Part shown: positions 4,030 through 64,000 of the stretch, one piece after another
Layout of the letters: each line of letters starts with the position of its first letter
Position numbering within the stretch: the stretch's first letter is position 1
Assembly (NCBI RefSeq): GCF_000421105.1
Contig: NZ_ATWF01000001.1
Span: 778,930-842,929 of the forward strand
Direction: 5' to 3'
Length of the DNA stretch: 64,000 nt
Source: Limisalsivibrio acetivorans
Lineage (GTDB): Bacteria > Chrysiogenota > Deferribacteres > Deferribacterales > Geovibrionaceae
The notes under the pieces: model-generated
The model's database searches: none
The model's input: only the letters and a program-made list of their open reading frames with translations
What the model was told of the DNA's origin: nothing
Translations under genes and position numbers: made by a program

Positions 4030-6905
4030 AGACCAAGCCACTTTGAGAGAACCTTCTCAAGCCCCGCCTGTTCAACAGGCTTGGCTATGTAGTCGTCCAT
4101 CGATGCGTTTAGGCATTTTTCAAGATCCCCGTTCATGGCGTGTGCTGTTACCGCAACCACCGGACAGTGGGGGAGTCCGTTGTTTTTTTCATGTTCCCTT
4201 ATCTTAGCGGTAGCCTCGTAGCCGTCCATTCCGGGCATCTGTACATCCATAAGTACCAGGTCGAAGCTGTCATTAATAAAGGCTTCCAAAGCCTCCTTAC
4301 CATTCTCCGCCGTGATAACATCAAAGCCCATGTTACCCAGCAACAAAAGGAACAGCTTACGGTTCACAGCGTTATCCTCCGCAACAAGTATACGCCCCTC
4401 CCCTTTACCAGTTAATGGAGATTTAACAACCCGCTTATCTTCAACGGGGCTATCACATTCCTCCAAAAGAACCTCAAACCAGAAACATGAGCCGTTCTCA
4501 AGCCTCTTCATGCCTATGCTTCCACCCTGCATCTCAGCAAGCTGTTTGGATATGGCAAGACCGAGACCTGTTCCGCCGAACCGTCTTGTATGGGATGTAT
4601 CCGACTGGGTAAACATCTCAAAGACATCCTCCTCCATCCCTTCAGGAACGCCGATCCCCGTATCGTTTACCTCTACATGGAGATACTGGGCACCATTCCT
4701 CCTGTCCAGCCTTGCATCAAGGGCCACAGAGCCCTCTTCGGTAAACTTTACAGCATTGCCGGTGAGATTTAGGAGTATCTGCCACAAACGTCTTGCATCA
4801 CCGGAATAAACCTTTTCCAGCTCTTCGGAAAGCTGAAGTGTGATCTCTATCCCTTTCTCCGCTGCCTTAAAGCGCATCATCTTCACAATATCACGCAGGA
4901 TATGCCCCGGAACATATGGTTCCCTCTCTATCTCCATGGCTCCAGCCTCGATCTTAGAGAAATCCAGAATATCGTTCAGGATTGAGAGGAGCTGGTCTGA
5001 ACTGCTTCGGATATAACCGGTGTACTCCCTCTGTCGGGCATCGAGCTGTGTCTCACTCAGAAGACCAAGCATCCCCACAATGCCGTTCATGGGGGTTCTT
5101 ATCTCATGGCTCATATTCGCCAGAAACTCGGATTTGGCTCTGCTAGCCTGCTCTGCAGTCTCCTTTGCCTCAATAAGCTCCTCTTTCGCCGAGTTATGCT
5201 CCCTGAAATACTGAACGATCCGGCCAAGCTCCATGCAGAGATACTCAAGGGCTTTCAAAAGCTCTGGCGTAAAGGTCTCCTTCCTGTCGGAGTAAAACAT
5301 CACTCCTCCCTCGGACGCCCCCTTAATAGTGAATGGTATGGCGGAGTTGGAAGCATACCCAAGCTCAATGGCATAATCCCTCCATTTGGCAAAACCCGGG
5401 TCCTCAGCAAGATTGGCATATGTAAAGGGCTTTTGATCAAGAATCGCCCTGCTCATGGCACACTTCGCATCCTCCGATTCGGGCTCCTTTATCTCAAGGA
5501 TTAACCCATTGAGGTATTTGTCCCCCTTTCCGGCGGTGTACTCCGGTGTTACCCTCCCATCTTCGTATCTACCGTACCAGGCCATAACGAAGCCGTAGAT
5601 ATCAATGGTGCTCTGCAGAAAGGTTTCCCAGAGCTTCGCCTCCCCCTGTTCGGGCTCAACGGAGCGAATGCGGGCGAGTATTCTCTGCAGGTTTGAATCG
5701 TACAAGAGCTTGCGTTCTGCCTCTTCTTTCTCCTTTACCTCTATCTCCAGCTCCGAATTCATTCTCCTGAGTGCGGCTTCCCGCTCTCGAATCTTTTCGC
5801 TCAGTTCGTGGATAAGCCTTGTTATACTGGAGATCTCATCATTACCCGAAGGGGGTAGATCGTCTACGAAATAGCTTCCCCCTGCGATATCCTCAAGGAG
5901 CTTTTTCTGGGCCACGATCCTATCCATGAAGTATTTCTTGATGAATATTGAGCTCAGAAGAATGAGTAACAGACAGAGAATAATGGCGACAGCCGCCTGC
6001 TTGGCCACCGTTGATGCCACTGCGGCAGAGATGGGAGAAAAGTCAAACACGGTATAGATACATATACCCTCACGTGCCAGTGTTGAGCGTTGCAGCCCGG
6101 CGGGATTCATAAGTGTATATACGTGAACTATACCGTCTTCATATAAGCGGTACTCCCCTTCCTTCAGAACAGCATCTTTTATTTCGGGGCTCAGAGGCTT
6201 GTTTTCGTTAAGGAGTGACCACTGTCCTACATTATTAAAGCTGTATATGTCCAGCTCCTGCAGGTATGTGTTCATCTCTATAAGTTCGTTGAAGTAGTCC
6301 TTGAAGAGGTAATCCCTGTAGCTTTCACTGAAGGTTCGGCGGATATACTCACGCATGCGGACGGAGACTTCGATAATATAGTCCCATCTGGAGGGGCCGT
6401 AATAGGCGTATTTATTGAGGGTTCCGGTGAGGGAGGATACACCGTAGGTATCTATATGGATCCTGCCCGTACCGAAAATGGATGTGAGAAGTGCCTTGAG
6501 CGGAGCGGACACCTCAAATAGATTAAGCCCCATATCCTTGCGGAACGTTGTGTTTACGATAAACCCTTTACGATTAACAAGGTATACCTCATCAAAACCA
6601 TATTCCGCCGCAGTTTTTCTCAGGGTTTTCTCCGGTATATCACTAGGTGAGCCCTGAAGCTTACTAAGGCTGTCATAAACCTTTGGCAGGTTCTCCTCTA
6701 TGCGTTCGTTTATCTTTTCCTCACTTTTAGAAAGCAGGATGTCGAATGATTTGAACTTACTACCCACCTGAAGGGTTATGTCCGTTATAATCCCCTCGGT
6801 GAGCCTCTGGTTGCGCTTTCCTGTCTCATATATACCAAGCCCTGCAACACAGAATGATGTTAGTACAACGGTAAACAACAGATAAACAATGAGGCTTTTC
6901 TTCAT
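4026..6905 (-). CDS. Membrane-bound hybrid histidine kinase (Cache-like/HAMP/GAF/HisKA/HATPase/REC)
   Basis: The product has 959 residues. A transmembrane helix (about 5-25), a periplasmic domain of roughly 275 residues resembling a Cache-type sensor, and a second helix (302-323) lead into a HAMP-like linker and coiled coil. A GAF-like domain (about 405-570) follows, then the kinase core with H600 ([12 protein letters not shown]), a HATPase domain (GTGLGLAI near 778-785) and a C-terminal receiver with D887 and K942. No HPt domain is attached, so a separate HPt protein would be needed for a full phosphorelay. It converges with the PAS kinase and shares its last 4 bases. The stimulus is unknown. 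Confidence 0.85.
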
Positions 6906-6921
6906 ATAAACCTATTCCATG

Positions 6922-9900
6922 CTACATAGATGTCGCAACGCCGTAGAGGTTAATGTACCCCTTTGCACCAAAGGGTGCATCGGTATCCACAACAAACCTG
7001 GTAGGGTGCGCTCCCCCTGCCAGACTTGGATTATATCTCAGCTTAACCGTGCATGATTTCTGGGGTTTCAGAGTAAAGCTGTTTGTATCGCATGCACTTG
7101 AGGAATACCCGGTCTCCATGCCGTACTCTGTTGAATCCTCAAGGGATATGTTCACATTCATGTCGTTGACTCCGTTGTTGGAAATGGTAACCTCCAGCGG
7201 GTTCGATGATGAATACTGGGGAACGGGGCCGAAGGCTGCTGTTATATGCGAAAGACCGAGCACAGGCACAAGGGCATCCGTAGAGTAGATAACCGACTTA
7301 CCGTCTTGATAGGCTGCATGTACGGTGTTTGAGGAGGCATTTACCGCCAGATCGTACATGGAGTAACCGTTGCTGACAGCCTTGTTCGAAAGTGTGCCCA
7401 CATATGCAGAGGCGAAGTTGTCCGAGTTTGTGGCGTATTTAAGCACCCCGTTATCATAGAAGGCAACGTGGTAGAAATCTGAACCGTCTCTATCGATCTT
7501 GGGGCCTGTTATAACCGTCGAAGGAGTTGCCAAAAGCGTAGAGGCACAGGATCCTCCTACAGGGCACTCATAGAAGTACAGTGATTCATTCAATGCATTA
7601 GTAAAAGCTGCCATTATCTGACCGCCGGAGCCGACGGTCATAGAGTTATCAATACCATCGCCACTCGTTGATGCTATCACATTTGTCAACGAGTCTACGG
7701 TATCGGCGAGGGAGAGCGTACTGGAATTGTTATAGTATCCAATATAGTTTTTTGTACTCCCCCTCACAATGCTCACCTGACTGTTAGCACCCGCAACCAG
7801 AGCAAGACCAGTCGCATTGCAGTTGATACCGCTGCATTCCGCCTTGCTGACAACTGAGCCTGTTCCAACGTATGCCAGAACACTCCCTGCGGCTCCATCT
7901 GACGCTATATCACAATAGGGAAACCCGTCTACAGATGTAAAATTCATCGATTTATCACCGGTATTTTCAATATAGCTAAGCCAGCTCGCCGAGGAGCCGT
8001 CTGTTATCACAGTGCATGCATCAATGCCCGTTCCGTCGAATTTCATAGCCAGGCTCTTGAGCTCGGATGAGCTGGAGTTATGAAGAAGATACTCCGATGT
8101 ATACTCGTTACCGCTCACATTGTTCGTTTCCATTACCCTTATATTGTCGGGAGAGATCTGGTCGCTGGCAAGGACATACACCTCATCAAGAGCATCGTTA
8201 ACATCCACAGATACACGGGTTTTTTCATTATACTTGTGCATCTTGTCCACACTCTCCTCCGCCTGCCATGCTGCGGAGTAGTAGCTCTCGCTGTTCAGAT
8301 CCGCCTTATCAATATACAAGGTATAAACATCATCGATATTGCTCGCTGCGACTATGCCGGATACATCCCCTGCATAGGAGAAGAGCGGTCCTGCGGAGGA
8401 CAGGTTGTAATCGCTGCCCCACGTACCCGAGTCGTATTTCTTATAGGTTATAAGGCTGTGGTCCAGGGCACTCATAGCAACATGAACAAGGTTACCTCCG
8501 GCAAGGGCCGGGCATCCGTAGGAACCGGATACATCTATATCTCCATTCATCCACCCCGTTGCGCTGGAGGAGAATTTAATGTAATCGGTGACGGTATCCC
8601 GCCATGCCACGTACATGTTATCCGTTCCCTCTACAGCTATGGAGGGGCATGTTCCCGTAGACGTAAGTACCTGTCCGGTGCTCCATGATCCGCTTGTTCC
8701 GAAGAGGTATTTAACCTGCGAACCGGTGCTGTAGGTCAGGTGCAGGACGTTACTGGAATCGATGTCCATCTGCACATCAACACCCGTGGCACCTGCATCG
8801 GTGTTGTCATCGAGTATCTCGGTAGAGAAGGATGCGCCCGAATCAGTGGAGAAGGAGTATTTAAGGAATCCGCTGGTGGCATCCTGATAGGCCGCATGTA
8901 TGCCTCCGGAACTGTCAACCTGTACGGTTACACTCGCCCCGTCCACATCTCCGTCACTCTCCACGGTATGATGCTCCCAAAGACCAGAGTTTGTCCTGTT
9001 TGTGGCATAGAAAACATCGCCGTCGGAGCCGTTCGTAACCTGATAGACAACATGGGGGAAGCACTTTGAGTCCACAGCGATGGCCGTATAACCGATATAG
9101 TATCCCGATGGTACTGTTGCACCGATATCCTGGGTATACCACGTTCCACTGTGGAAGTAGGCGTGCATAACACCCTGACCGCCGTAAACTGCATGGGCAA
9201 GACCGTTGTTGCATGCCGCTATGCCTGATTTGGATAGTACGTTTATCTCTTTACTCTCACCCAAGACGAACTCAGTGAATGTCCCGGCCTCCACCGCATA
9301 ACCGTCAAGGGATACCGTGGATGTTGGCGTATCAGGATCATCGGAGTTAATGCTTACAGTGGCACTCCTCGCTCCCGTTGTCCCAACAGGTTCATAGGTA
9401 ACGCTTATCACACAGCTTTCACTTGGTATCAGAACATCGCAGTTGTCCGAGTATGTAAAGTCCGATGAGCCAGCGATACTTACACTGGAAACGGTGAGAT
9501 CGTCATTGCCGGAGTTTGTTACGTTTATGCTTCCTCCAGAGGTGTCTCCTGTTTTAACCGACAGGAAGTCGTAGCTTACAGGGCTAACGCTTATGTTGGG
9601 GTCAAGTCCGTTGTCTGTAGCACCGGAAAGAGCGTAGTTGAAGATGGCGTTATCGGGATCATTCGTATGAATGTACAAGGTCTCGCTGTATGTGTTTTCG
9701 GTACTGGAACCAAAGTCCACGCTGAAGGTGCATGAACCGGACGGGGGTATCTCCTCTGCGCAGTTTCCGCCGTCATACGGGGTGAATACAGTGAGATCCG
9801 TATTGTCGAAGCTTACGGTAAGATTGTCGTTGCCGTCGTTGGTTATTGTAGCGTTCTGGGTATGGGTTGTTTCAACCCCCACCGTACCGAAATCCATGGA

Positions 9901-44082: not shown

Positions 44083-45008
44083 ACTGAAACCTCCTCGCTT
44101 GCAGTTTTCATCTTCTTCTCTTTACAGCTTCCTTTAAGATCCTTGCCCAATATTCCGGCGGCATCCGCCCTGCACTGCTTACAGTGATGCATCACTTTAT
44201 TAAAGCCGCCCATCTCCGAAGCGCAGAGCCTTCTGACCTCTGCTACCTCCAGCTCCGAGGGTTCTCTAACCCCTTCTTTTGCAAAGGCTGTGCCATATTC
44301 CGGCTTGGAGAGAAGGGGTATCACATTATGTATGAAAACCCCCATACGCCTGATTTCCCGGGATACCATGGGTATCTGCTCCATATTCTTACCCGGAGTC
44401 AGCACTGTATTAATTTTGACCAGTATCCCCGCCTCGGCGAGTTTTGCGATACCCTCCTTCTGCCTTTCCAGAAGATAGGCCGCACCCTCTTCACCGGTAA
44501 GCCTTCCTTCCGGTGTTCTGACCCATGCATACATAAGCGAAGCCGTTTTTGCATCCACTGCGTTCATGGTCACCGTCACATGATTAATGCCGAGCTCCCT
44601 TATCTCATCGATATAGTCCGGCAGGTTCAGGCCGTTTGTGCTGAGGCACAGATGGGTTTCAGGATCGAAACCCTTTATCATCTCAAAGGTTTTGAAGGTC
44701 TTCTCCGGATTCGCCAAAGCGTCCCCGGGTCCTGCTATACCCGCAACGCTGAGATTAGGCAGAAGCTTCTTTGTGGACATGTATCTGTGAAGCGCCTCTT
44801 CGGGTGTTATCACACCACTTGTGACGCCGGGCCTTGATTCGTTGGAGCAGTCGTACTTCCTGTTGCAGTAGTTGCACTGAATGTTGCATGCCGGAGCAAC
44901 GGGAAGGTGTATCCTTGCGTACTTGTGCTTTGCATCGGCACAGTAGCAGGGGTGTGTCTCTATCTTTTTCTTCAGTTCCTCGTCGGGATTAAGAAATACC
45001 TTGCTCAT
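44079..45008 (-). CDS. nifB: FeMo-cofactor biosynthesis radical SAM protein NifB (core form)
   Basis: The product has 309 residues from the ATG at 45008 (GGAGG upstream); an upstream TTG start would include the sigma-54 promoter. The radical-SAM cluster C41-NIQ-C45-NY-C48 is present, with additional cysteines near residues 21-23 and in a CKQC-type C-terminal region. NifB builds the [8Fe-9S-C] NifB-co precursor of the nitrogenase cofactor. The C-terminal NifX-like domain found in many proteobacterial NifB proteins is missing. First gene of an operon with the TOBE protein and the Amt chemoreceptor. Confidence 0.95.
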   Translation of the reverse strand: MSKVFLNPDEELKKKIETHPCYCADAKHKYARIHLPVAPACNIQCNYCNRKYDCSNESRPGVTSGVITPEEALHRYMSTKKLLPNLSVAGIAGPGDALANPEKTFKTFEMIKGFDPETHLCLSTNGLNLPDYIDEIRELGINHVTVTMNAVDAKTASLMYAWVRTPEGRLTGEEGAAYLLERQKEGIAKLAEAGILVKINTVLTPGKNMEQIPMVSREIRRMGVFIHNVIPLLSKPEYGTAFAKEGVREPSELEVAEVRRLCASEMGGFNKVMHHCKQCRADAAGILGKDLKGSCKEKKMKTASEEVSV

Positions 45009-53398: not shown

Positions 53399-54283
<885 letters not shown>

Positions 54284-54307
54284 TTAATTTGATTACGCAA
54301 ACAGTAT

Positions 54308-54325
54308 AATCAAGAGGCATGCCAA
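54308..54325 (-). promoter_or_regulatory. Sigma-54 promoter of nifHDKT
   Basis: On the minus strand TTGGCATGCCTCTTGATT carries GG then GA 10 bases on; the -24 half is good and the -12 half slightly off consensus. It lies 37 bases before the nifH ATG. Confidence 0.72.
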
Positions 54326-54372
54326 AATGCAAACAACTGGTACAAAACGACTTATTCTCAGAGACCCCTTTT

Positions 54373-54388
54373 GTGTAAGGTTTGCTAC
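54373..54388. promoter_or_regulatory. NifA upstream activating site of nifHDKT
   Basis: TGTAAGGTTTGCTACA fits TGT-N10-ACA and the island palindrome with one arm mismatch. It lies about 50 bases upstream of the nifH -24 element and just after the draG stop. Confidence 0.8.
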
Positions 54389-54410
54389 AATGAACTTGTA
54401 AGCTTTATAA

Positions 54411-55304
54411 TCAAACGGAGCCACCCTTTTTCGCGCCAAGGCGGAGGAGTGCGGAGGTCTGCATGCGAATCTCTGTTTTCACATCACTGCTAAGCCGGCG
54501 AAGCCATTTACGGGGTATTGCGCTTGTGCCGTACATTGCTCCGGCGAGCATCCCGGCAAGTGCACCGTTTGTGTCCGCATCACCCCCCTGATTAACTGTG
54601 CGTACGAGGATATCCTCGAAGGATACGCCGTCGAAGAAATGATGCATAACGGTTTTGAAGGTGTCCTTTATATATCCGCTGCATTCACCTTTATATCTGG
54701 AGAAGGAGAAGTGGGGATGCTCCCTGATAAATACGGAGGCTGTATCGAGGGCCCTGATCTTGTTTCCTGTGAGCAGGAGCTGTCTTGTTATGTCGCCGAA
54801 GGCAAGGGTTGCAAGATCGGAGAGTTCGTTATTGTGGGTTATATGACATTGGGCGAGGGTATATTCCGAAAACCTGTCCCAGTCCTCCATACAAAAGAAG
54901 ATCATGGGGAGGTTTCGCATACATGCACCGTTCCCTGCGGAGAACTCGCTTTCGGGGGAAATTAGCTGCCCCTTCAGCATATAGTCACGTATCCCCCTGC
55001 GGACGGTGGAACCAATATCCACAGGCTTCGAGCGCATCCACCGGACAAACTCATCCGCCGCACTCTCAACACTGAATCCCCCCTGGGAGAGGATACTTCT
55101 TCCGAGTGCGATGCACATCTCCGTATCGTCCGTAACCCTGCCGGGTCTGAGTTTCAGCCAGCCGCCGCCGATGATCCTGTTGTGGACACCGTAGGTTGTC
55201 TTTATCTCCCGCTCTGTCATGAATTCCACAGTTGCACCGAGGGCATCCCCCACAGCGAAACCGAGATAGGCTCCCTCCGCCCTGTCAAATATATCAGCTT
55301 CCAT
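54411..55304 (-). CDS. draG: ADP-ribosyl-[dinitrogenase reductase] glycohydrolase DraG
   Basis: The product has 297 residues with the ADP-ribosylglycohydrolase motifs: GFAVGDALGATVEF, RVTDDTEMC for the first metal aspartates and NQGGDADTNGALAGMLAGA for the second. It removes ADP-ribose from NifH arginine, reactivating nitrogenase when ammonium falls. It is divergent from draT across 34 bases. In other bacteria its location is controlled by GlnK-AmtB; here the only Amt is the chemoreceptor fusion. Confidence 0.93.
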   Translation of the reverse strand: MEADIFDRAEGAYLGFAVGDALGATVEFMTEREIKTTYGVHNRIIGGGWLKLRPGRVTDDTEMCIALGRSILSQGGFSVESAADEFVRWMRSKPVDIGSTVRRGIRDYMLKGQLISPESEFSAGNGACMRNLPMIFFCMEDWDRFSEYTLAQCHITHNNELSDLATLAFGDITRQLLLTGNKIRALDTASVFIREHPHFSFSRYKGECSGYIKDTFKTVMHHFFDGVSFEDILVRTVNQGGDADTNGALAGMLAGAMYGTSAIPRKWLRRLSSDVKTEIRMQTSALLRLGAKKGGSV

Positions 55305-55338
55305 GGTAATTGGCCTTTTTATTGCTTAAAATACTGCT

Positions 55339-56127
55339 ATGGACATCAAAAAACCCTTCTACCACCACACAAACCGGATAAACATCCCCTCCTGGCTCTT
55401 TGCGAGCAGGGTATATAATACGAGTGCACAGGAAATACATATCAGCGGCGTAAACGAGTACTACGGCGATATATTTCGAGCCATAAGCGAATGCGGCGAT
55501 ATATCCGAGTCCTGTCGTATCTTCGAATCCGCCATGACCGAGCTTTTCAATCTCGACCTTCGTCACAGGGGGAAGCGGGTGGGGAGCTACCTCCGCCTGC
55601 TCAAGGGGTGGCTTTTCGATTCCAACAATATTGAGGGGGCTGTCCTCAAAGGATGGGTGGAGAGCCGCTTCGGGCTTGTCCCCTTCTTCCACAAGGAGAT
55701 TATTAAGGATATTAACTGTAAGGAATACTACGACTATATGGTGGAGAAGATGAACGGCAGGCACAACAAAAATATGATGTTTCATCAACTGGATCTCCTC
55801 TATACATATATACAGACGATGCTTGGGGGCTACTTCGGAGAATACACCCCCCATGTGACCCTCTACCGGGGTGTCAACAACCTCGAGGAACACAGGATAA
55901 TCGAGCGAAAAAGCAAGAGGGAGGTCTGCATTGAGCAGAACTCCCTCGTATCCTTCACAGCATCCAGAGAGGTGGCTGAGTCCTTCGGAGACTATATTCT
56001 GGAGGTGAAGGTTCCATATACAAAGGTGTTTTTCTTCGCCACCGCCATGCCCACAGTCAGCTTCTGCGGTGAGGATGAATTCATCATCCTCGGCGGCAGG
56101 TACGACACAACTATCAGATACTACTGA
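55339..56127 (+). CDS. draT: NAD+-dinitrogenase-reductase ADP-ribosyltransferase DraT
   Basis: The 262-residue protein begins MDIKKPFYHHTNRINIPSW and has TLYRGVNNLEEH, NSLVSFTASREVAESFGDYILEV and a C-terminal DEFIILGG segment, the R-S-E arrangement of DraT. It switches nitrogenase off by ADP-ribosylating R101 of NifH after ammonium shock. Ribosome site upstream is weak. The last 7 bases overlap the convergent nifZ. Confidence 0.92.
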   Translation: MDIKKPFYHHTNRINIPSWLFASRVYNTSAQEIHISGVNEYYGDIFRAISECGDISESCRIFESAMTELFNLDLRHRGKRVGSYLRLLKGWLFDSNNIEGAVLKGWVESRFGLVPFFHKEIIKDINCKEYYDYMVEKMNGRHNKNMMFHQLDLLYTYIQTMLGGYFGEYTPHVTLYRGVNNLEEHRIIERKSKREVCIEQNSLVSFTASREVAESFGDYILEVKVPYTKVFFFATAMPTVSFCGEDEFIILGGRYDTTIRYY

Positions 56128-56441
56128 CAGCTCCCCCCGCAGGATGCCTCAACACAGCCGTCATCAGGCACGCTGAGGGGCTCATCTAGCTTTGTCCACT
56201 CCCCCGTATCGGGATTAAAGTCCTCAACAATCTCAAGCTCCTGCTCACGAAAACCGAGGATCTTTCCCGATTCCATGAAATGTATGACAATAACGGGCTT
56301 GAACATGAACTCCGTAATCTCCCTTACAAATCCGGAATCGCCAATCTCGGCAACCTTGCTCCCTCTGGAGCATCCTGCACATGTTCCATCACTCCTTATG
56401 AGCTTCTTTACCCTTACCTTCTGATTCTGCTTAAATATCAT
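56121..56441 (-). CDS. nifZ: NifZ protein with a cysteine-rich tail
   Basis: The 106-residue protein has the NifZ domain: KQNQKVRVKKLIRSDGTCAG, GDSGFVREITEF and VIVIHFMESGKILGFREQEL. NifZ assists P-cluster maturation of NifDK. An unusual C-terminal tail contains CVEASCGGSC, three cysteines that could bind iron or zinc. It follows fdxB by 8 bases. Confidence 0.87.
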   Translation of the reverse strand: MIFKQNQKVRVKKLIRSDGTCAGCSRGSKVAEIGDSGFVREITEFMFKPVIVIHFMESGKILGFREQELEIVEDFNPDTGEWTKLDEPLSVPDDGCVEASCGGSCQ

Positions 56442-56449
56442 AACTCACC

Positions 56450-56734
56450 TCACGCCTGGGCGGCGGTTGCAGGGACTTCCTCAAAGGTGAAGCATTTCTT
56501 CGCACAAGCCTTCGCACAGGCACGGCAGCCTATACAACGCTCCTCACGCTCGATACCCATGAAAACCTTGAGGGTGTCGGTCTCCTCGTCCTCCTCTTCC
56601 TGTATGCCGAGAGCTCCCTGAGGACAGGCTTTGAAGCACCTTCCGCATCCTATACAGCTCTCCTGATCAAGATCCTTTATAAACTTGGGGGTCCATTTGC
56701 TTCCGTCTTTCCTATAACTTTCAAGATATTCCAT
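56450..56734 (-). CDS. fdxB: nif-specific 2[4Fe-4S] ferredoxin FdxB
   Basis: The 94-residue protein has CIGCGRCFKACPQGA and CIGCRACAKACAKKC, two 4Fe-4S sets, and an N-terminal KFIKDLDQE segment typical of nif ferredoxin III. It may carry electrons to NifH or serve cofactor assembly. It leads the fdxB-nifZ unit; an A/GGAGG ribosome site precedes the ATG. Confidence 0.92.
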   Translation of the reverse strand: MEYLESYRKDGSKWTPKFIKDLDQESCIGCGRCFKACPQGALGIQEEEDEETDTLKVFMGIEREERCIGCRACAKACAKKCFTFEEVPATAAQA

Positions 56735-56765
56735 ATCATTACCTCCGCATTTGTTTCGGTCTTAT

Positions 56766-56783
56766 AAGCAACCCCCGTACCGT
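56766..56783 (-). promoter_or_regulatory. Sigma-54 promoter of fdxB-nifZ
   Basis: On the minus strand ACGGTACGGGGGTTGCTT has GG and GC 10 bases apart. The -24 box (CGGTAC) is weaker than its neighbours. It lies about 30 bases before the fdxB ATG. Confidence 0.65.
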
Positions 56784-56842
56784 TCTTGATGAACCATTTT
56801 TATCAACATGTTACGGAATAACAGTCACATTACGCACCACCA

Positions 56843-56860
56843 TTGTAATAAACCTTACAA
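56843..56860. promoter_or_regulatory. NifA upstream activating site between fdxB and nifA
   Basis: TTGTAATAAACCTTACAA contains TGT-N10-ACA with one arm mismatch. Its centre is about 70 bases from the fdxB -24 element and 115 from the nifA -24 element, so it can serve both, allowing NifA autoregulation. Confidence 0.8.
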
Positions 56861-56963
56861 AGCGCACATTCTGCCTGCGTACATAAAAGAAACAGAGACT
56901 GCACTTTTTTTAAGCAATTATTTACTTTTAAACCCTCAAAGCCGCTGAATACGCCTCCGTTTT

Positions 56964-56980
56964 TTGGCACGTCCATTGTT
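56964..56980 (+). promoter_or_regulatory. Sigma-54 promoter of nifA
   Basis: TTGGCACGTCCATTGTT has GG then GT 10 bases on. The expected start of transcription is near 56990, so an in-frame codon at 56990 is not usable as the translation start. Confidence 0.72.
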
Positions 56981-57037
56981 ACTTACCCAATGTGCATTTC
57001 GATCCCTCCCGCAACAGGGGGGTCGTCAATCCGATCG

Positions 57038-58705
57038 ATGTCATATATGAAAAATGAACTCAGCTATTACAAAACTGCCATAGAGACCATCTACGAGATA
57101 AGCATGGAGTTCTACTCCTCCGAGGATCGCAAGAGTGCTTTGCGTCAGGTTTTAAGCATTCTGAGCGACAATCTTGGCATGGAGCGGGGCTTCATACTCC
57201 TTTATGATGAGAACGCAAAACAGCTATATATCGAAGCATCCCTTGAAAACACCCTCGATAAGGGTGGAAGGGTCTACTACAGGCTTGAGGAGGGGATCGT
57301 GGGCAAGGTGTTTCGCCTGGGAATGCCGATTCTCATCCCCGACATAAGCAAGGAACCTATCTTCCTCAACCGTATGCGACGTGAACTGCAGAATCAGGCC
57401 TTCAGCTTCCTTGCAGTCCCAATCAAGGAGGACCACACCACCTTCGGCGTGCTTGCCGTGGATAAGAACGCCGCCGATATTTTCAGCACCACAACCGAGA
57501 TAGACCTACTCAAGATGATATCAACACTCCTCGCCTCATTCCTTCGCAAAACGGGAGAGATCGAGGAGGAGAAGAAGATCCTCTCCGACGAGAAGGAGCG
57601 TTTGCAGAATCAGGTGAGGCGCAAGTTCAGCTTCAAAGGGCTTATCGGTACGGGGAAGACTATGCAGACCGTCTTTGAGCGTGTTGCAATGGTCTCAAGG
57701 ACGAAGTCCACAGTGCTTATCAGGGGTGAAAGCGGAACGGGAAAAGAGGTTGTGGCAAAGACTGTCCACTACAACAGCGAAAGGGCAGACAAGCCTTTCA
57801 TCGCCGTCAACTGTGCCGCCATACCGGGGGAACTCATTGAGAGTGAGCTCTTCGGCTACCAGAAGGGAGCCTTCACAGGTGCCACCCAGGAGAAGAAAGG
57901 GAAGTTTGAGATGGCGGACGGCGGAACGCTTTTCCTCGATGAGATAGGGGATATGCCCCACGAGGCCCAGAGCAAGCTTTTGCGTGTTTTGCAGGAGATG
58001 CGTGTGGAACGCCTCGGCGGAACCAGATCCATAGAGGTAAACGTACGTGTTATCACGGCCACAAACAAAAACCTCGAGGAAGAGGTTCGGGCGAGCCGTT
58101 TCCGTCTTGATCTATACTACCGTCTCAACGTAGTTACCATATTCCTCCCCCCTCTGCGTAAAAGGAAGGAGGACATACCCCTTCTTGCTGAAAACAAGCT
58201 TAAGCGATTCAATGATGAATACGCCACGGAACTGAGGTTCGCCCCCGAAACACTGAATGCAATGATGCACTGCAACTACCCGGGCAACGTTCGGGAGCTT
58301 GAGAACTGCGTTGAAAGAGCCGCACTCTCAGCCATTGGCTCAAAGGAGATACGCCCCCAGCATGTGAGCTGTCTGCGGGGTGATGTCTGCTACTCCCGCC
58401 TTATGGAATCGATGTTCAGCGACGCTCCGGCACAAAGCGCAGAGACCCCGGCACCAAGACCACCCGATGCCGATCCGCCAAGGATTCAGGAGGCATACTC
58501 CCCCCCTCCCCCCATGGAGGAGAGATCACTCAGCAGTGAGCCGATACCGGATATTAAAGAGCCTATGAGTGAGCGTCAGTCCATAATTGATGCCCTTGAG
58601 AAATCAGGCTGGGTGCAGGCGAAGGCGGCAAGAATGCTCGGGATGACCGTTCGCCAGATGAACTACCGGATCAAGAAATACGACATCCACGTCCGAAGAT
58701 TCTAG
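57038..58705 (+). CDS. nifA: NifA, sigma-54 enhancer-binding activator
   Basis: The product has 555 residues from ATG 57038; ATG 57047 is an alternative and neither has a strong ribosome site. A GAF domain (about 12-165), an AAA+ domain with GESGTGKE, GAFTGA and VNCAAIP motifs (about 190-425), a proline-rich linker (about 445-520) and a Fis-type helix-turn-helix at the end (AKAARMLGMTVRQMNYRIKK) are seen. It activates the nif promoters here through the four TGT-N10-ACA sites. The GAF domain may bind 2-oxoglutarate or a PII protein; no nifL is adjacent. Confidence 0.92.
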   Translation: MSYMKNELSYYKTAIETIYEISMEFYSSEDRKSALRQVLSILSDNLGMERGFILLYDENAKQLYIEASLENTLDKGGRVYYRLEEGIVGKVFRLGMPILIPDISKEPIFLNRMRRELQNQAFSFLAVPIKEDHTTFGVLAVDKNAADIFSTTTEIDLLKMISTLLASFLRKTGEIEEEKKILSDEKERLQNQVRRKFSFKGLIGTGKTMQTVFERVAMVSRTKSTVLIRGESGTGKEVVAKTVHYNSERADKPFIAVNCAAIPGELIESELFGYQKGAFTGATQEKKGKFEMADGGTLFLDEIGDMPHEAQSKLLRVLQEMRVERLGGTRSIEVNVRVITATNKNLEEEVRASRFRLDLYYRLNVVTIFLPPLRKRKEDIPLLAENKLKRFNDEYATELRFAPETLNAMMHCNYPGNVRELENCVERAALSAIGSKEIRPQHVSCLRGDVCYSRLMESMFSDAPAQSAETPAPRPPDADPPRIQEAYSPPPPMEERSLSSEPIPDIKEPMSERQSIIDALEKSGWVQAKAARMLGMTVRQMNYRIKKYDIHVRRF

Positions 58706-58737: not shown

Positions 58738-58838
58738 GAGCGTTTGCGATGCGATAACTGGAGGCTATGCGCATATCTGCATCGATACCCAAAGACCCTT
58801 TTTGAGGATCCTCAAGCATAAACACAGAATATAAAGGC

Positions 58839-58858
58839 GGGGGGCATTAAAGCCCCCC
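58839..58858. terminator. Terminator of the multiheme cytochrome gene
   Basis: GGGGGGC and GCCCCCC form a 7-bp stem with a 6-base loop, 22 bases after the cytochrome stop. On the minus strand only a modest T-rich tail follows. Confidence 0.6.
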
Positions 58859-58880
58859 CTTTCAGATTTTGATTATACTG

Positions 58881-60803
58881 TTACTTCAGTTCTGAAAGCA
58901 TCTTCTCCGCCTTGGCGGTGTTATGCGGCAGAACTGCCTTGATTACATTGAGCCTGTCGAGCATATCCTCGTTCTTAGCCTTCTTGTACTTAAGGGTAAG
59001 ATTGTGGATCTTGCCGTAGAGCATGTTGTATTTACCCTGAACCTTCTCCACCTTGTCCTCATCGAAGGGGATGGACATATCAACGCCCTTAACATCCCAT
59101 ACGTTTCCGGTTACGAGATAGGGGGCGAAGTTCTCCACACTCTGACCATCCACGGGAACGGGTGTTTCGTTCATCCAGTCCGTAAAGAAGAGACCGTCCT
59201 TTGTGGCCTTGACCCTGTAGCTTCCGCTGAAGGGCTTCTTAACATCTGTGGCGTTGAAGTAGGTGTACCATGTGGTAGCTTCCTGATCGTGGCTGGAGTG
59301 GCAGGAGTCGCATTTTCTGGGCTCGCCGAGGGCGTGGCTGAGCTTATCCATCTGGATCCATGCGAGCATGCTGTCGTTCTCCTTGAGGTTCTTCTTGAAT
59401 GTACCGTTTATTACGTACATGTCGTTAACCTCGTCACCCTTTCTTTCCACAGTGAAGTCCTCTTCGCCGAGATCCTTGTTCCCTTTGATGGTCTGCTTCT
59501 CGATGGTTCTTAGCATAAGACCTGTAGGCTCCATATCCTTCTTGATATTCATAACGCCCATGGGGTAAGGCTTGAGGGGTATCCAGAGCCCTGTTTCAGG
59601 ATGCTTAACAAGGGTGGGCTGGCTTCTTACGCCATAGTACTGCTTGTGCTTGGTGTATACCTTCTTCTGCGCTTCCTGCTTTCCAGGGCCCCAGAAGGTG
59701 AACTGGTATGCACCTGATTCCTGTATGTGACATGATGAGCAGTCCACACTGCCGTGTTCATCGGAGGACTTGACGGCATCGTACACCTCGGCGTGGCAGT
59801 CCTTACACGATTCTCTGGCCTGTTCCGAGCTTAGATGACCGTAGGAGTGGCTCTCCATCTTATGGCAGTCGCTACAGCCTACTCCCGCCTTTGCATGGGC
59901 GCCGGTGGGGAGCTCATGTATAGGGAATGCAAACTCCTCTCTCATGTAGCCCGCACCCCTTCTTCTGTCGTTGGGGCCTGCGTGGCAGATGGTTCCCTTG
60001 CCGCTGCCGTAACAGGACATGGGCTCAACCTCTTTTGCAAACTTGTGGCTTGCGTTGGATTTCTTGTAGCCCTGATAGTGACAGTCGTTACAGCTTGCGT
60101 GGCATTTGTTGCACCCTCTTGCAGAACCCTTGGCGGATTCTTCCTTGTACTCTCTGGTGCAGTCCTCTTCGAGCTTATCGTAGTTGTCGCCGAACCATGC
60201 ACCGCAGTTCTGGGGCCCGGGAGGTGAATCGGTGAAGCTGGTGAATCCCCTCTGGTATTTGTTAAGACCCATGCCGGACTTGTTGTAGTCCTCTACCTCG
60301 CCCATATGACACTTACCGCAGGTCTGCTCTGCGATCTCGGGGCTGTATGCCATAGTTTCGGGGTCACGGTCGTGGTAAAAGAGCTGAATAATACGTTTGA
60401 TACCCTTCTCTTTGGCCTTTTCTGGATCGGGCTGGCGGAGAAGTACCTTAAAACGGACATCACCCTTGGGCTGGATACGGTCGTAATTGGTTATGTCTCT
60501 GCCCACAGCCTGATACTTGTGGTTTTTACCCACAGCGGCATAGAAGGGTCTGGGCATTCCTTCGTGTGCCTTCTCTGCCACTATCTCCTCGTTGTTTCCA
60601 AGGTGACAGTCTACGCAGTTGATATCACCCATGTTTACCTCTTCCTCAACCTGATCGGGGTCGAGGTAAAGCTGGGGATAGCCGAGCTTTTCCATTGCGG
60701 CTTCGTTTCCATGGCACTGCACACAGCTTGAATCCTTATCGTATGCGAATGCGCCGGAAGCTAAAAGCGTGAGAGCGAAAACGGTTAAAATAAACCTTTT
60801 CAT
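58881..60803 (-). CDS. Periplasmic multiheme cytochrome c (nine CXXCH plus one CX8CH)
   Basis: The product has 640 residues from the ATG at 60803, after AGGAGGT. A signal peptide (about 1-20) precedes nine CXXCH motifs: CVQCH, CVDCH, CGKCH, CNKCH, CNDCH, CSDCH, CKDCH, CSSCH and CDSCH. There is also a widely spaced CYGSGKGTICH (CX8CH) between the fifth and sixth. The C-terminal third is heme-poor and helical. No known family is recognised with confidence; it is likely a respiratory reductase or electron carrier for an oxyanion. The gene has its own sigma-54 promoter and lies beside an NtrC-type regulator and kinase that probably control it. Confidence 0.8.
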   Translation of the reverse strand: MKRFILTVFALTLLASGAFAYDKDSSCVQCHGNEAAMEKLGYPQLYLDPDQVEEEVNMGDINCVDCHLGNNEEIVAEKAHEGMPRPFYAAVGKNHKYQAVGRDITNYDRIQPKGDVRFKVLLRQPDPEKAKEKGIKRIIQLFYHDRDPETMAYSPEIAEQTCGKCHMGEVEDYNKSGMGLNKYQRGFTSFTDSPPGPQNCGAWFGDNYDKLEEDCTREYKEESAKGSARGCNKCHASCNDCHYQGYKKSNASHKFAKEVEPMSCYGSGKGTICHAGPNDRRRGAGYMREEFAFPIHELPTGAHAKAGVGCSDCHKMESHSYGHLSSEQARESCKDCHAEVYDAVKSSDEHGSVDCSSCHIQESGAYQFTFWGPGKQEAQKKVYTKHKQYYGVRSQPTLVKHPETGLWIPLKPYPMGVMNIKKDMEPTGLMLRTIEKQTIKGNKDLGEEDFTVERKGDEVNDMYVINGTFKKNLKENDSMLAWIQMDKLSHALGEPRKCDSCHSSHDQEATTWYTYFNATDVKKPFSGSYRVKATKDGLFFTDWMNETPVPVDGQSVENFAPYLVTGNVWDVKGVDMSIPFDEDKVEKVQGKYNMLYGKIHNLTLKYKKAKNEDMLDRLNVIKAVLPHNTAKAEKMLSELK

Positions 60804-60832
60804 ATCTACCTCCTGTAATCTCAATATCCCTT

Positions 60833-60852
60833 AACGCAAGGGGTGTGCCAAA
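60833..60852 (-). promoter_or_regulatory. Sigma-54 promoter of the multiheme cytochrome
   Basis: On the minus strand TTTGGCACACCCCTTGCGTT carries TTGGCAC-N5-TTGC, a consensus-quality -24/-12 element. It lies 30 bases before the ATG. Confidence 0.9.
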
Positions 60853-60970
60853 GAGACTCAGGGGGAAGACGTGCATAATATTCGCTTTGCACCAGTATTT
60901 TAGACAAACTAAAAAGGAAGGGTAATTCCTAGCGGAACACAAGGAGAATTGCACTATACAACACTGCACC

Positions 60971-60985
60971 CTTGCATAATGCAAG
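60971..60985. promoter_or_regulatory. Palindromic enhancer site for the adjacent NtrC-type regulator
   Basis: CTTGCAT-A-ATGCAAG is a perfect 7+1+7 palindrome about 120 bases upstream of the -24 element, just past the regulator's stop codon. A related half-site TGCATAAT occurs at 60872-60879. The distance suits an enhancer for the sigma-54 promoter. Confidence 0.6.
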
Positions 60986-60986
60986 A

Positions 60987-62273
60987 CTACCTTACGCCGT
61001 ACTCCTTAAGCCTGCGGTGGACAGTGGAGGCATCCACTCCGAGGATCTCTGCGGCTTTGGTTTTGTTTCCGCCGCACTCATCAAGGGTGGAAAGGATATG
61101 GTTTTTGATAACATCCTCAAGCCTGCTGGAGCCTGCCGCTCTGGCAGATGGGGATGAGATACTGAGGGATGCGGGGGTTATCTCTTCACCGGTTTCAAGG
61201 ATCATGCTTCGCTCGATAATGTTAGCAAGCTCACGAACGTTACCAGGGAAATGATAGGAACCCAATAAAGCCTCAGCATCCGCAGATATGCCACGCACAT
61301 CGGGATTGATATGACTGAATTTTTCCAGGAAGTGAAGAGCAAGGGGCATGATGTCCTCACGCCGCTCACGCAGAGGGGGGATCGTTATGGTGAGCACATT
61401 AAGCCTGTAGTAGAGGTCCTGCCTGAACTCTCCGCTGGAAGTCTCCTCCTCAAGGTTCCTGTTTGTGGCGGAGAGCACACGAACCCTCGCTGTCTCCGGC
61501 TCCAGACCGCCAACGGGATAATAGCTCATGGTTTCGAGGAAGCGGAGGAAACGGGGCTGTACGGGATGGGGCATCTCCCCTATCTCATCCAGAAAAAGGG
61601 TTCCGCCGTCTGCGGTGGCAACAAGCCCCCTTTTGTGCCTGTCCGCACCTGTAAACGCCCCCTTGCGGTATCCAAAAAGTTCGCTCTCAAACAGCTGTTC
61701 CTGAAGGTTTCCACAGTTCACCGGAACGAAGGGCTCCGCATATCTCTTTGATTTCTCATGGATATATCGTGCAAGAACCTCTTTACCCACACCAGTTTCA
61801 CCCGTTATGAGGATTCCCGAATCGGATTGTGCCGCCCGCTCTGCAAGCTTAAGGACAGAGGCGAAGCTGTCCGAGGTGTAAACAGGCTCCGTTCCGGTTC
61901 CAGCTATCTCGGACCGGCTCAGCTTCTGGCGCACATCCTGCAGCTTGCGACGCAGAAGTTCCACATCCACAGGCTTAAGGAAGTAGTCCGATGCGCCGGA
62001 TTTGATCGCTCGCACCGATTCCTCCACGGTTCCGAAGCCCGTTATAAGAAAGAAGAACGTATCCGGGCTCTCCTTCTTCACGTTTTCCAGCAGTTCAAGA
62101 CCGGAAAGGCCGGGCATCTTCATATCGGAGATAACGGCATCCGCCCCCGATTTGCTGAGATGCTCAAGCGCCTTGAGCGGATCATTAAAGGTTACTATAT
62201 CAAACTCGTCCTCAAGGCTTTTCTTGAGGAGCATGGAAAGCGTTACATCATCATCAACAAGAAGAACTTTCAT
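60987..62273 (-). CDS. NtrC-family sigma-54 response regulator
   Basis: The product has 428 residues. A receiver domain with D7-D9 and phospho-acceptor D50 (VISDMKMPG), an AAA+ domain with GETGVGKE and GAFTGA, and a C-terminal Fis-type helix ([22 protein letters not shown]) are present. It should bind the palindrome just after its gene and open the sigma-54 promoter of the cytochrome gene. Its start overlaps the kinase gene by 20 bases. Confidence 0.92.
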
Positions 62274-64000
62274 CGAATTCCACCCTTATGGTTGTACCCC
62301 TCTCCTTCTCCGATTCCACGGATATGCGTCCGCCGTGTTCGGTGACAATCCTGTGCACAATACTCAAACCAAGCCCTGTGCCTTTGTCCGGTGATTTGGT
62401 TGTGAAGAAGGGGTCGAATATATTCTCCATCTCTTTCTCATCCATACCCCTGCCAGTGTCCGAAACCTCCAGCACCGCAGAGCTGTCGATGCAGAATAGC
62501 TTAATATTCACCTCACCCTCGGGGTAAACGGCATCCACCGCATTTATCAGGATATTCAGAACAACCTGGGATATGAGGGTCTCATTAGCTGTTATGTATA
62601 CATCATTAAGCTCTGCTTTTAGTGATATCTTTGCATCCACCTCAAGGAACCGCATGATGTTCTCTATGGTTTCACGAAGGTTTACGTTGGTTTTATCCTG
62701 CGCCGAGCTGTCGGTCATAAGCCTCTTCATGGCTGAGAGTATATCCACACACCGCTCCGCCTGAGCCCGAACCGCCGTAAGCTCCTCGCTCTTTCCGTAC
62801 TCCTTTTCCATGAGGGTGCAGGCCACCAGAATGGAGTTCAGCGGTGTTGCAAGCTCATGGGATATGCCTGCACTCAGAACGCTCAGGGAGCTGAGTCTGT
62901 CCACTATCTCCATCTTACGCCTGCTCTCCTTCATACCCTCGATATGGTGTTTGAGGGAACTTGCCATCTCACGTATGGAATCCGCCATATCGTTGAGTTC
63001 ATCGGTGAAATCCCCCTCAAGCTCATGGTCGAGGTTCCCCTCGCCGTACTGCTGGAGAGAATACTTTATATCACCGATGGGCTTAAGGAACCTTGCGGAG
63101 AATATGAAGGCTGTTATCACGCTCATGAAGAGGGATACCGCCATTACAATTATGAAGTTGTATTTAAGACCCGAGAGGCTGCGGAAGATGAAATCCCCGT
63201 TAAGAACTGCGGCAATCTTCCATTGCCTCCTGACGTCGTTGTAAGGTGAAATAGTTGTGAAGGCGAGGTAATCCTTTCCGTTGTTAATCTTCATTAGCCC
63301 GTTGCGGTTATTCTCAAAGGCGTGCATAACATCTTCGCCATAAACCGAAATCACACGCTTGTTATGCTCCATCTGGTTTGCAAATTCATATGTTTTATCC
63401 CGATGGAAAAGGAATATCCCGTGGCGCATCGGCTCCTTCCTATTCATCTCGGCGATGAAGCTGAAACCCTCTTCTTTGCGCATCTTATCGATAACTGCGC
63501 CGATACGCTCACCCCAGAAGTTCACCACAAGGAAGCCCCTCTTCTCTCCGTTCTCCATAAATGGGATAACAGCCCTCAGCATGGACGGGCAGAAGCTTGT
63601 AGCGTCTGGGAGGTGACCCCGCTCGAAGTTGGAGAAGATTATACTCTCCTCCTCCAGCTCAAAGGCGGGCTGCATAAACTCTTTGTCGGAGATATCGATG
63701 GGCTCGTAACCCTCCTCCCCGGTGAGGTTTACGCATTCCCTGATGAATATACGGATAACGCCGTCACTATCCACAACACGCAAAGCCTGAATCTCGGGTA
63801 TATTGGCGCAGTAGTTCATGAAAAGGTTTTCTATCTCGTCCTTCCCCTCGCCGGAGTCGAGATACATTGTAAGGTATGGGTTATGGAAAAGGCCGAAGGT
63901 AACGCTCTGCATGTGATAAAGGAAATCCGCAACAGTCTTCCTGTCCGCTTCAAGAAGCTCTGTGGCACGCCTGCCTATCTCCCTCTCTATGACAGCACGG
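62254..64000 (-). CDS. Membrane-bound sensor histidine kinase (5' end outside window)
   Basis: The frame is open to the right edge, so the N-terminus is missing; the first internal ATG is at 63912, but the codons upstream are protein-like. A periplasmic Cache-like domain, a transmembrane helix (YNFIIVMAVSLFMSVITAF), HAMP, a kinase helix with SAGISHELATPLNS and a HATPase domain (GTGLGLSI) are visible. It is the partner of the NtrC-type regulator that follows. The signal may be the substrate of the multiheme cytochrome. Confidence 0.88.
   Translation of the reverse strand, partial: RAVIEREIGRRATELLEADRKTVADFLYHMQSVTFGLFHNPYLTMYLDSGEGKDEIENLFMNYCANIPEIQALRVVDSDGVIRIFIRECVNLTGEEGYEPIDISDKEFMQPAFELEEESIIFSNFERGHLPDATSFCPSMLRAVIPFMENGEKRGFLVVNFWGERIGAVIDKMRKEEGFSFIAEMNRKEPMRHGIFLFHRDKTYEFANQMEHNKRVISVYGEDVMHAFENNRNGLMKINNGKDYLAFTTISPYNDVRRQWKIAAVLNGDFIFRSLSGLKYNFIIVMAVSLFMSVITAFIFSARFLKPIGDIKYSLQQYGEGNLDHELEGDFTDELNDMADSIREMASSLKHHIEGMKESRRKMEIVDRLSSLSVLSAGISHELATPLNSILVACTLMEKEYGKSEELTAVRAQAERCVDILSAMKRLMTDSSAQDKTNVNLRETIENIMRFLEVDAKISLKAELNDVYITANETLISQVVLNILINAVDAVYPEGEVNIKLFCIDSSAVLEVSDTGRGMDEKEMENIFDPFFTTKSPDKGTGLGLSIVHRIVTEHGGRISVESEKERGTTIRVEFDESSSC

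Follow-up and report, generated by a model that had tools for sequence, protein, structure and literature searches.

A conserved CX8CH heme-like motif and an invariant cysteine, replaced by an in-frame TGA codon in some relatives, in a multiheme cytochrome of Limisalsivibrio acetivorans

Introduction

In octaheme tetrathionate reductase (OTR), a family characterized by reduction of tetrathionate, nitrite, or hydroxylamine, heme 2 is taken here to be the catalytic heme, with Lys153 as a ligand and Cys64 nearby. The residue types of the OTR structure 1sp3 were checked at positions 61, 64, 150, and 153; Asp150 and Lys153 follow the heme 4 motif, and Cys64 and Lys153 are each invariant in 33 OTRs. 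The sulfite reductases MccA and SirA, which are multiheme enzymes and belong to the broader NrfA/HAO class, have a Cu(I) site with two cysteines at the catalytic heme. Their extended heme attachment sites, CX15CH in MccA and CX12NKGCH in SirA, are served by dedicated lyases (PMC6976685, PMC7096707), and some NrfA clades have CXXCH at the catalytic heme (PMC8840924). In a second solved precedent for a heme on a stretched motif, heme 1 of the Geobacter protein OmcZ is bound through a site with 14 residues between the cysteines and has a structural role in an electron-transfer filament (PMC9473688). In the diheme enzyme TsdA, a thiosulfate dehydrogenase/tetrathionate reductase, a cysteine is both a heme ligand and the covalent partner of the sulfur substrate (PMC5146829). 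Selenium in multiheme cytochromes is already known: the selenoproteins listed in a review of 2026 include ExtKL and, as annotated in GenBank, the OTR family (PMC13188914).

The cytochrome described here is encoded in a 64,000-nucleotide stretch of the Limisalsivibrio acetivorans genome (contig NZ_ATWF01000001.1, positions 778,930 to 842,929), referred to as the window. The evidence suggests that it belongs to a branch of multiheme redox enzymes that is related to OTR and has yet to be named.

The cytochrome gene and its regulatory region

The interval 58881-60985 comprises the cytochrome gene, its promoter, and an upstream palindrome, with the frame itself ending at 60803 (Table 1). Consistent with a first-pass annotation of this DNA, the frame contains nine CXXCH motifs (at residues 27, 63, 162, 231, 238, 310, 333, 355, and 498) and a tenth motif-like site, CYGSGKGTICH, in which C264 is separated from C273 and H274 by YGSGKGTI. 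CXXCK, the motif of the NrfA-type catalytic heme, is absent from the protein (P0001). The family is named by no Pfam or NCBIfam model, and the same genome contains no close paralogue.

Table 1. Features of the cytochrome locus in window coordinates
Feature	Position	Strand	Remarks
Likely terminator	58833..58863	none	G+C-rich inverted repeat downstream of the cytochrome stop, by eye
Decaheme c-type cytochrome gene	58881..60803	minus	P0001; ATG at 60803, stop at 58881; 640 aa; signal-peptide-like N terminus; open frame and orthologues
DRRRG, codons 279-283	59955..59969	minus	Follows CX8CH; R281, R282, G283 invariant; approximate position of the OTR D150-K153 loop
CX8CH heme motif CYGSGKGTICH, codons 264-274	59982..60014	minus	Invariant C264, G266, G268, K/R269, C273, H274
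CNKCH, codons 231-235	60099..60113	minus	Aligned to OTR heme 2; putative catalytic heme
C200 codon in GPQNCG	60204..60206	minus	Outside heme motifs; invariant Cys; TGA (putative Sec) in 13 second-phylum genomes
Sigma-54 -24/-12 promoter TGGCACACCCCTTGC	60836..60850	minus	Exact match; counterparts upstream of orthologues
Second palindrome copy TTGCACTATACAA	60949..60961	none	Imperfect; 23 bp from the first
Palindrome CTTGCATAATGCAAG	60971..60985	none	Perfect; putative upstream activating site; recurs upstream of orthologues
NtrC-family response regulator	60987..62273	minus	428 aa; receiver, AAA+ sigma-54 activator, Fis-type HTH
Sensor histidine kinase	62254..64000	minus	HAMP, HisKA, HATPase_c; 5' end past the window; full length 609 aa

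The sigma-54 promoter and the perfect palindrome described by the same annotation are both present, and both recur upstream of orthologues. The promoter is one of two exact sigma-54 consensus matches within the window. The other exact TGGCAC-N5-TTGC match is located at 44281-44295 on the minus strand, beyond the nif genes. In 20 of 21 orthologue upstream regions, a counterpart of the promoter, matched at 8-10 of 10 positions, precedes the start by roughly 33-54 bp, and TTGCA-N3-TGCAA is found upstream of 12 of 21 orthologues. The significance of the palindrome rests on this recurrence, because its count in the single window is near chance, with three palindromes of at most one mismatch found and 2.3 expected.

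The NtrC-type regulator and kinase that had been assigned to the gene are adjacent to it, and the order kinase-regulator-cytochrome is kept at most orthologous loci; an extra open frame lies between the regulator and the cytochrome at L007 and L010. The membrane kinase and the NtrC-type activator would switch on the cytochrome via the palindromic sites and the sigma-54 promoter. Sigma-54-type control and a two-component pair of its own fit a response to a specific compound, in line with the proposed induction by a specific respiratory substrate. At L108, the cytochrome, kinase, and regulator adjoin a phosphite-type (Ptx/Phn-like) transporter and a 2-hydroxyacid dehydrogenase, and at L104 a phosphonate-binding-type protein is encoded near a kinase/regulator pair. 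Just downstream of the cytochrome in the window, 53399-58705 contains nifH, a ferredoxin-like gene, and nifA, together with an ADP-ribosylglycohydrolase-like gene at 54411-55304, a possible DraT-like gene, assigned by position only, at 55339-56127, and a sigma-54-like site, TGGCACGTCCATTGT, at 56965-56979 before nifA.

The cytochrome gene is present in 18 of 51 Deferribacterota genomes, including 12 of 12 from the family of the window's organism, and in a second phylum a wider search identified homologues in 103 genomes out of 396.

The CX8CH motif

Both cysteines and the histidine of the CX8CH motif are kept in every copy of the gene in all 18 Deferribacterota genomes that carry it; the counterpart in L028 reads CYGSGKGTVCHSGP. 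C264, C273, and H274 were invariant in nine of nine orthologues in a first alignment, and the corresponding residues are invariant in 42 of 42 homologues from the two phyla, with one subfamily having the form CX9CH. Two second-phylum groups retain CX8CH, and a third has CX9CH. The alignment of 42 proteins also shows G266, G268, G276, R281, R282, and G283 to be invariant and position 269 to be Lys or Arg throughout. This invariance indicates that CX8CH is not a chance pattern and agrees with the earlier description of the site as heme-like, which variable cysteines in orthologues would have refuted. At L094, genes for two divergent CX8CH cytochromes lie in tandem (5774-7666 and 7742-9520), and those for a TlpA-like thioredoxin and CcdA come next.

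Profile alignments by hhalign place the motif on canonical heme sites. Against ExtN (probability 99.8, E 4e-28), CX8CH aligns to a canonical CXXCH with a six-residue gap, and against a profile of 33 OTR sequences (probability 98.6, E 6e-16), it aligns to OTR heme 4, also with a six-residue gap. In both alignments, the first cysteine and the Cys-His pair of CX8CH fall on the canonical CXXCH; with a shallower profile of five OTR sequences, the first cysteine and no more of the motif was aligned. Because it aligns to canonical CXXCH in both ExtN and OTR, CX8CH is most readily understood as a heme site that has been expanded, and these comparisons suggest that it most likely represents a real tenth heme, in which the CXXCH of OTR heme 4 has been widened by six residues. 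This heme is probably not the catalytic one. A literature search found no relevant paper on CX8CH or CX9CH hemes.

Searches of the window's genome identified one CcmF, one CcmC, and a HemX-type protein beside hemA, but neither ResB nor a dedicated heme lyase of the CcsA1 or SirEFG type. A third Cytochrom_C_asm protein, considered as a candidate dedicated lyase, is this HemX. The CX8CH site would presumably be matured by the single general Ccm system of the cell. The first-pass annotation had likened the unusual spacing to that of a catalytic heme needing its own lyase; the alignment of CX8CH with heme 4 of OTR and with a normal heme of ExtN argues against the first part, and the extra CcsA-type lyase that it had proposed to look for was not found in the genome.

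Residue 200 and the in-frame TGA codons

A more telling feature than CX8CH is a cysteine outside any heme motif, C200 (GPQNCG), which is invariant in 42 homologues and is the candidate catalytic residue in place of the CX8CH heme. In 13 genomes of the second phylum (L076-L088), the C200 codon is an in-frame TGA in a frame that is otherwise open, and two or more Cys/Sec changes at this position have to be placed on the tree. Among these 13 genomes, SelB is detected above the family cut-off in 11, one (G456) has a fragment of it at the edge of a contig, and it is undetected in G467, a genome that is 74% complete. In G424, which has the Cys form and belongs to the same family as the TGA genomes, SelB is also undetected, with matches at the level of EF-Tu only. 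Just downstream of the TGA, these forms have a SECIS-like hairpin, whose apical loop reads GGTC in the majority, whereas the Cys forms lack this shared hairpin. The energy z-scores, derived from 100 mononucleotide shuffles, range from -2.5 to +0.3 in the TGA forms and from -0.7 to +1.5 in the Cys forms, and the argument for Sec therefore rests on the common hairpin pattern and not on energy.

The selenoprotein hallmarks of in-frame TGA, SECIS, and SelB are thus found in relatives, and the gene in the window itself has Cys. Together they provide good evidence, from the genome sequences, that the TGA at the C200 position encodes selenocysteine in an apparently unannotated selenoprotein family. 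Sec forms of this family were not found in any published report, and no in-frame TGA was found in true OTRs of the second phylum. In order between hemes, C200 sits in the same inter-heme segment as OTR Cys64, and hhalign leaves the two residues unaligned. Pairing of C200 with C216 as a conserved disulfide or metal site was considered and ruled out, because L002 and L010 lack C216.

Predicted fold and comparison with known systems

AF2 models were obtained for P0001 (pLDDT 85.6) and a CX9CH relative (pLDDT 88.8), which are different target proteins with overlapping alignments and have no hemes placed. The motif of interest is a low-confidence part of the P0001 model, with values of less than 50 for residues 270-278 and 280-283. 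VIA-align ranks OTR (1sp3) first for both the P0001 model (Z 7.8, 259 residues, 4.5 A) and the model of the relative (Z 8.6, 238 residues, 3.9 A, 21% identity), followed by MccA and OcwA for the former and the MccA helical bundle for the latter. Since Z values of 7.8-8.6 are about the level that unrelated models can reach, the profile alignments are given more weight than these structure matches. Foldseek matches the P0001 model to 1sp3 at E 1.6e-4; with the model of the relative, it returned no significant match and did not recover OTR. A single-sequence search against solved structures gave no convincing match, and profile-search matches to NrfA-type and c7-type chains were rejected as running through heme-motif stretches only.

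P0001 hemes 3-9 correspond to OTR hemes 1-7 by profile, and the eighth corresponds by order. Similar to OTR, which is also the best structural match of both models, P0001 has an invariant cysteine between the first and second core hemes, and the OTR family likewise has a listed Sec member (PMC13188914). P0001 differs from OTR in its additional pair of N-terminal hemes, its beta-rich domain and C-terminal helices, a CX8CH at heme 4 where OTR has CXXCH, and an RRRG loop rather than DAVK. The sequence DRRRGAGY that follows CX8CH contains no Lys, and the basic residues R281 and R282 are nearby in sequence. P0001 has no NCBIfam match to the OTR model TIGR04315 (cut-off 375 bits) at E values up to 0.1, and the window's genome (G000) has no match to it at 1e-10.

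The strongest sequence-profile similarity (the hhalign probability of 99.8 given above) is to ExtN, ExtO, and ExtM. P0001 shares with these cytochromes a tandem CXXCHxxCXXCH followed by a separate heme, but ExtN has a canonical CXXCH where P0001 has CX8CH, and the cytochrome gene is in a different operon from ext, which is associated with selenite/tellurite reduction. P0001 scores 21.2 bits with the ExtN model NF040967, below its 200-bit cut-off, and the ExtKL model NF040886 is not among its NCBIfam matches at E values up to 0.1. The same genome contains an ext-type operon (L040, G000:C1:1386000-1402000) that encodes ExtM-like and ExtN cytochromes and, after these, two proteins assigned by eye as a molybdopterin-type oxidoreductase and an iron-sulfur subunit; the ExtM-like protein starts with a CX4CH motif (CISGECH).

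MccA is the second structural match of the P0001 model (Z 6.5), and the beta-rich region at about 369-545 and the C-terminal helices of this model are similar to those described for MccA and OcwA (PMC6703420). P0001 shares an extended heme motif with MccA and SirA; in contrast to their CX15CH or CX12NKGCH and dedicated lyases, its CX8CH ends in GTICH, has no NKG and so does not fit the pattern CX12[N/A]KGCH either, and is accompanied by no dedicated lyase in the genome. OmcZ, a filament-forming electron-transfer protein, is compared with P0001 for its stretched heme motif. TsdA is a functional analogy only.

Discussion

We judge the odds to be slightly in favor of P0001 being a periplasmic decaheme oxidoreductase with an OTR-like core, in which CX8CH is a heme site and catalysis takes place at the equivalent of OTR heme 2 with C200 or Sec. 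To the OTR-type octaheme core would be added a further pair of hemes at the N terminus, a beta-rich domain, and a helical bundle at the C terminus. Catalysis would most likely occur at the heme of CNKCH 231-235, with C200, or Sec in some relatives, as a nucleophile or sixth heme ligand; the geometry of this site and the direction of the reaction are matters of prediction. One side of the pocket may be lined by the expanded motif together with the DRRRG loop, the basic residues K/R269, R281, and R282 may hold an anion there, and the remaining hemes would pass electrons. Outside the motifs, the ligand candidates conserved at 90% or more are H80, H144, H253, H303, H350, H490, H627, M178, C200, and K400. 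With seven conserved histidines for ten hemes, the sixth position of one or more hemes is probably not occupied by His. A more specific proposal, put forward tentatively, is that the family is defined by CX8-9CH as an active-site wall and a heme-proximal Cys that is exchangeable for Sec, possibly as a Cys-heme or Sec-heme ligand.

The substrate is weakly favored to be a sulfur oxyanion or S-S compound. Some second-phylum loci have SoxY/SoxZ, rhodaneses, and a TlpA-like thioredoxin with CcdA as neighbors, which is a hint of sulfur chemistry. Such loci are a minority in the second phylum, where other cytochrome loci have unrelated neighbors, and none of these genes lies beside the cytochrome gene in the window; the CcdA/TlpA neighbors may merely serve cytochrome maturation. 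Rhodanese-domain genes are found near a CX9CH cytochrome at L096 and L098, one of them with a CX4CH-type motif (CSLPGCH).

Two other readings concern the CX8CH site itself. The CX8CH heme could be the catalytic one, as in MccA, with the expanded loop opening its coordination site, a reading for which the invariant GxG(K/R) of the loop, the invariant RRG that follows, and the dependence of MccA and SirA on an extended motif (PMC6976685) can be cited. It is nevertheless unlikely given the alignment to OTR heme 4 and an ordinary ExtN heme, the long OmcZ loop at a non-catalytic heme (PMC9473688), and the lack of a dedicated lyase in the window's genome. That the two cysteines form a disulfide or metal site in a nonaheme protein is very improbable: both cysteines and the following histidine are invariant, homologues have CXXCH at the same position, and CX14CH and CX15CH hemes exist (PMC9473688, PMC7096707), against which stand the non-standard spacing, the low model confidence at the motif, and again the missing lyase.

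Other alternatives concern the function. Weak similarity to the ExtN/ExtO cytochromes, together with the structural role that an extended motif can have in OmcZ (PMC9473688), would suit an electron-transfer or extracellular-conduit cytochrome without small-molecule chemistry of its own, in which the loop and C200 have structural roles. An invariant residue that alternates between Cys and Sec instead suggests redox chemistry, OTR is the best structural match, the conserved distal histidines are too few, and a value of about 7 kDa of protein per heme is at the border of the catalytic class in PMC7096707, so that this reading is rather unlikely. Instead of a sulfur compound, the enzyme could reduce selenite, tellurite, or some other metalloid oxyanion, a role that has been proposed for the ext operon and that would be in keeping with the profile similarity to ExtN, ExtO, and ExtM, the ext-like operon in the same genome, and the listing of ExtKL as a selenoprotein as well (PMC13188914). 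However, the gene is not part of the ext operon, it reaches 21 of the 200 bits of the ExtN cut-off, and OTR is nearer in structure, which makes a metalloid substrate quite doubtful.

CX8CH/CX9CH joins the few known extended heme attachment sites and is strictly conserved across two phyla. In the window's genome, it is apparently served by the general Ccm system, which makes the limits of Ccm testable. Because one invariant residue alternates naturally between Cys and Sec, a probable catalytic residue can be picked out without enzymology, and annotation pipelines that stop at TGA would shorten the Sec members of this family.
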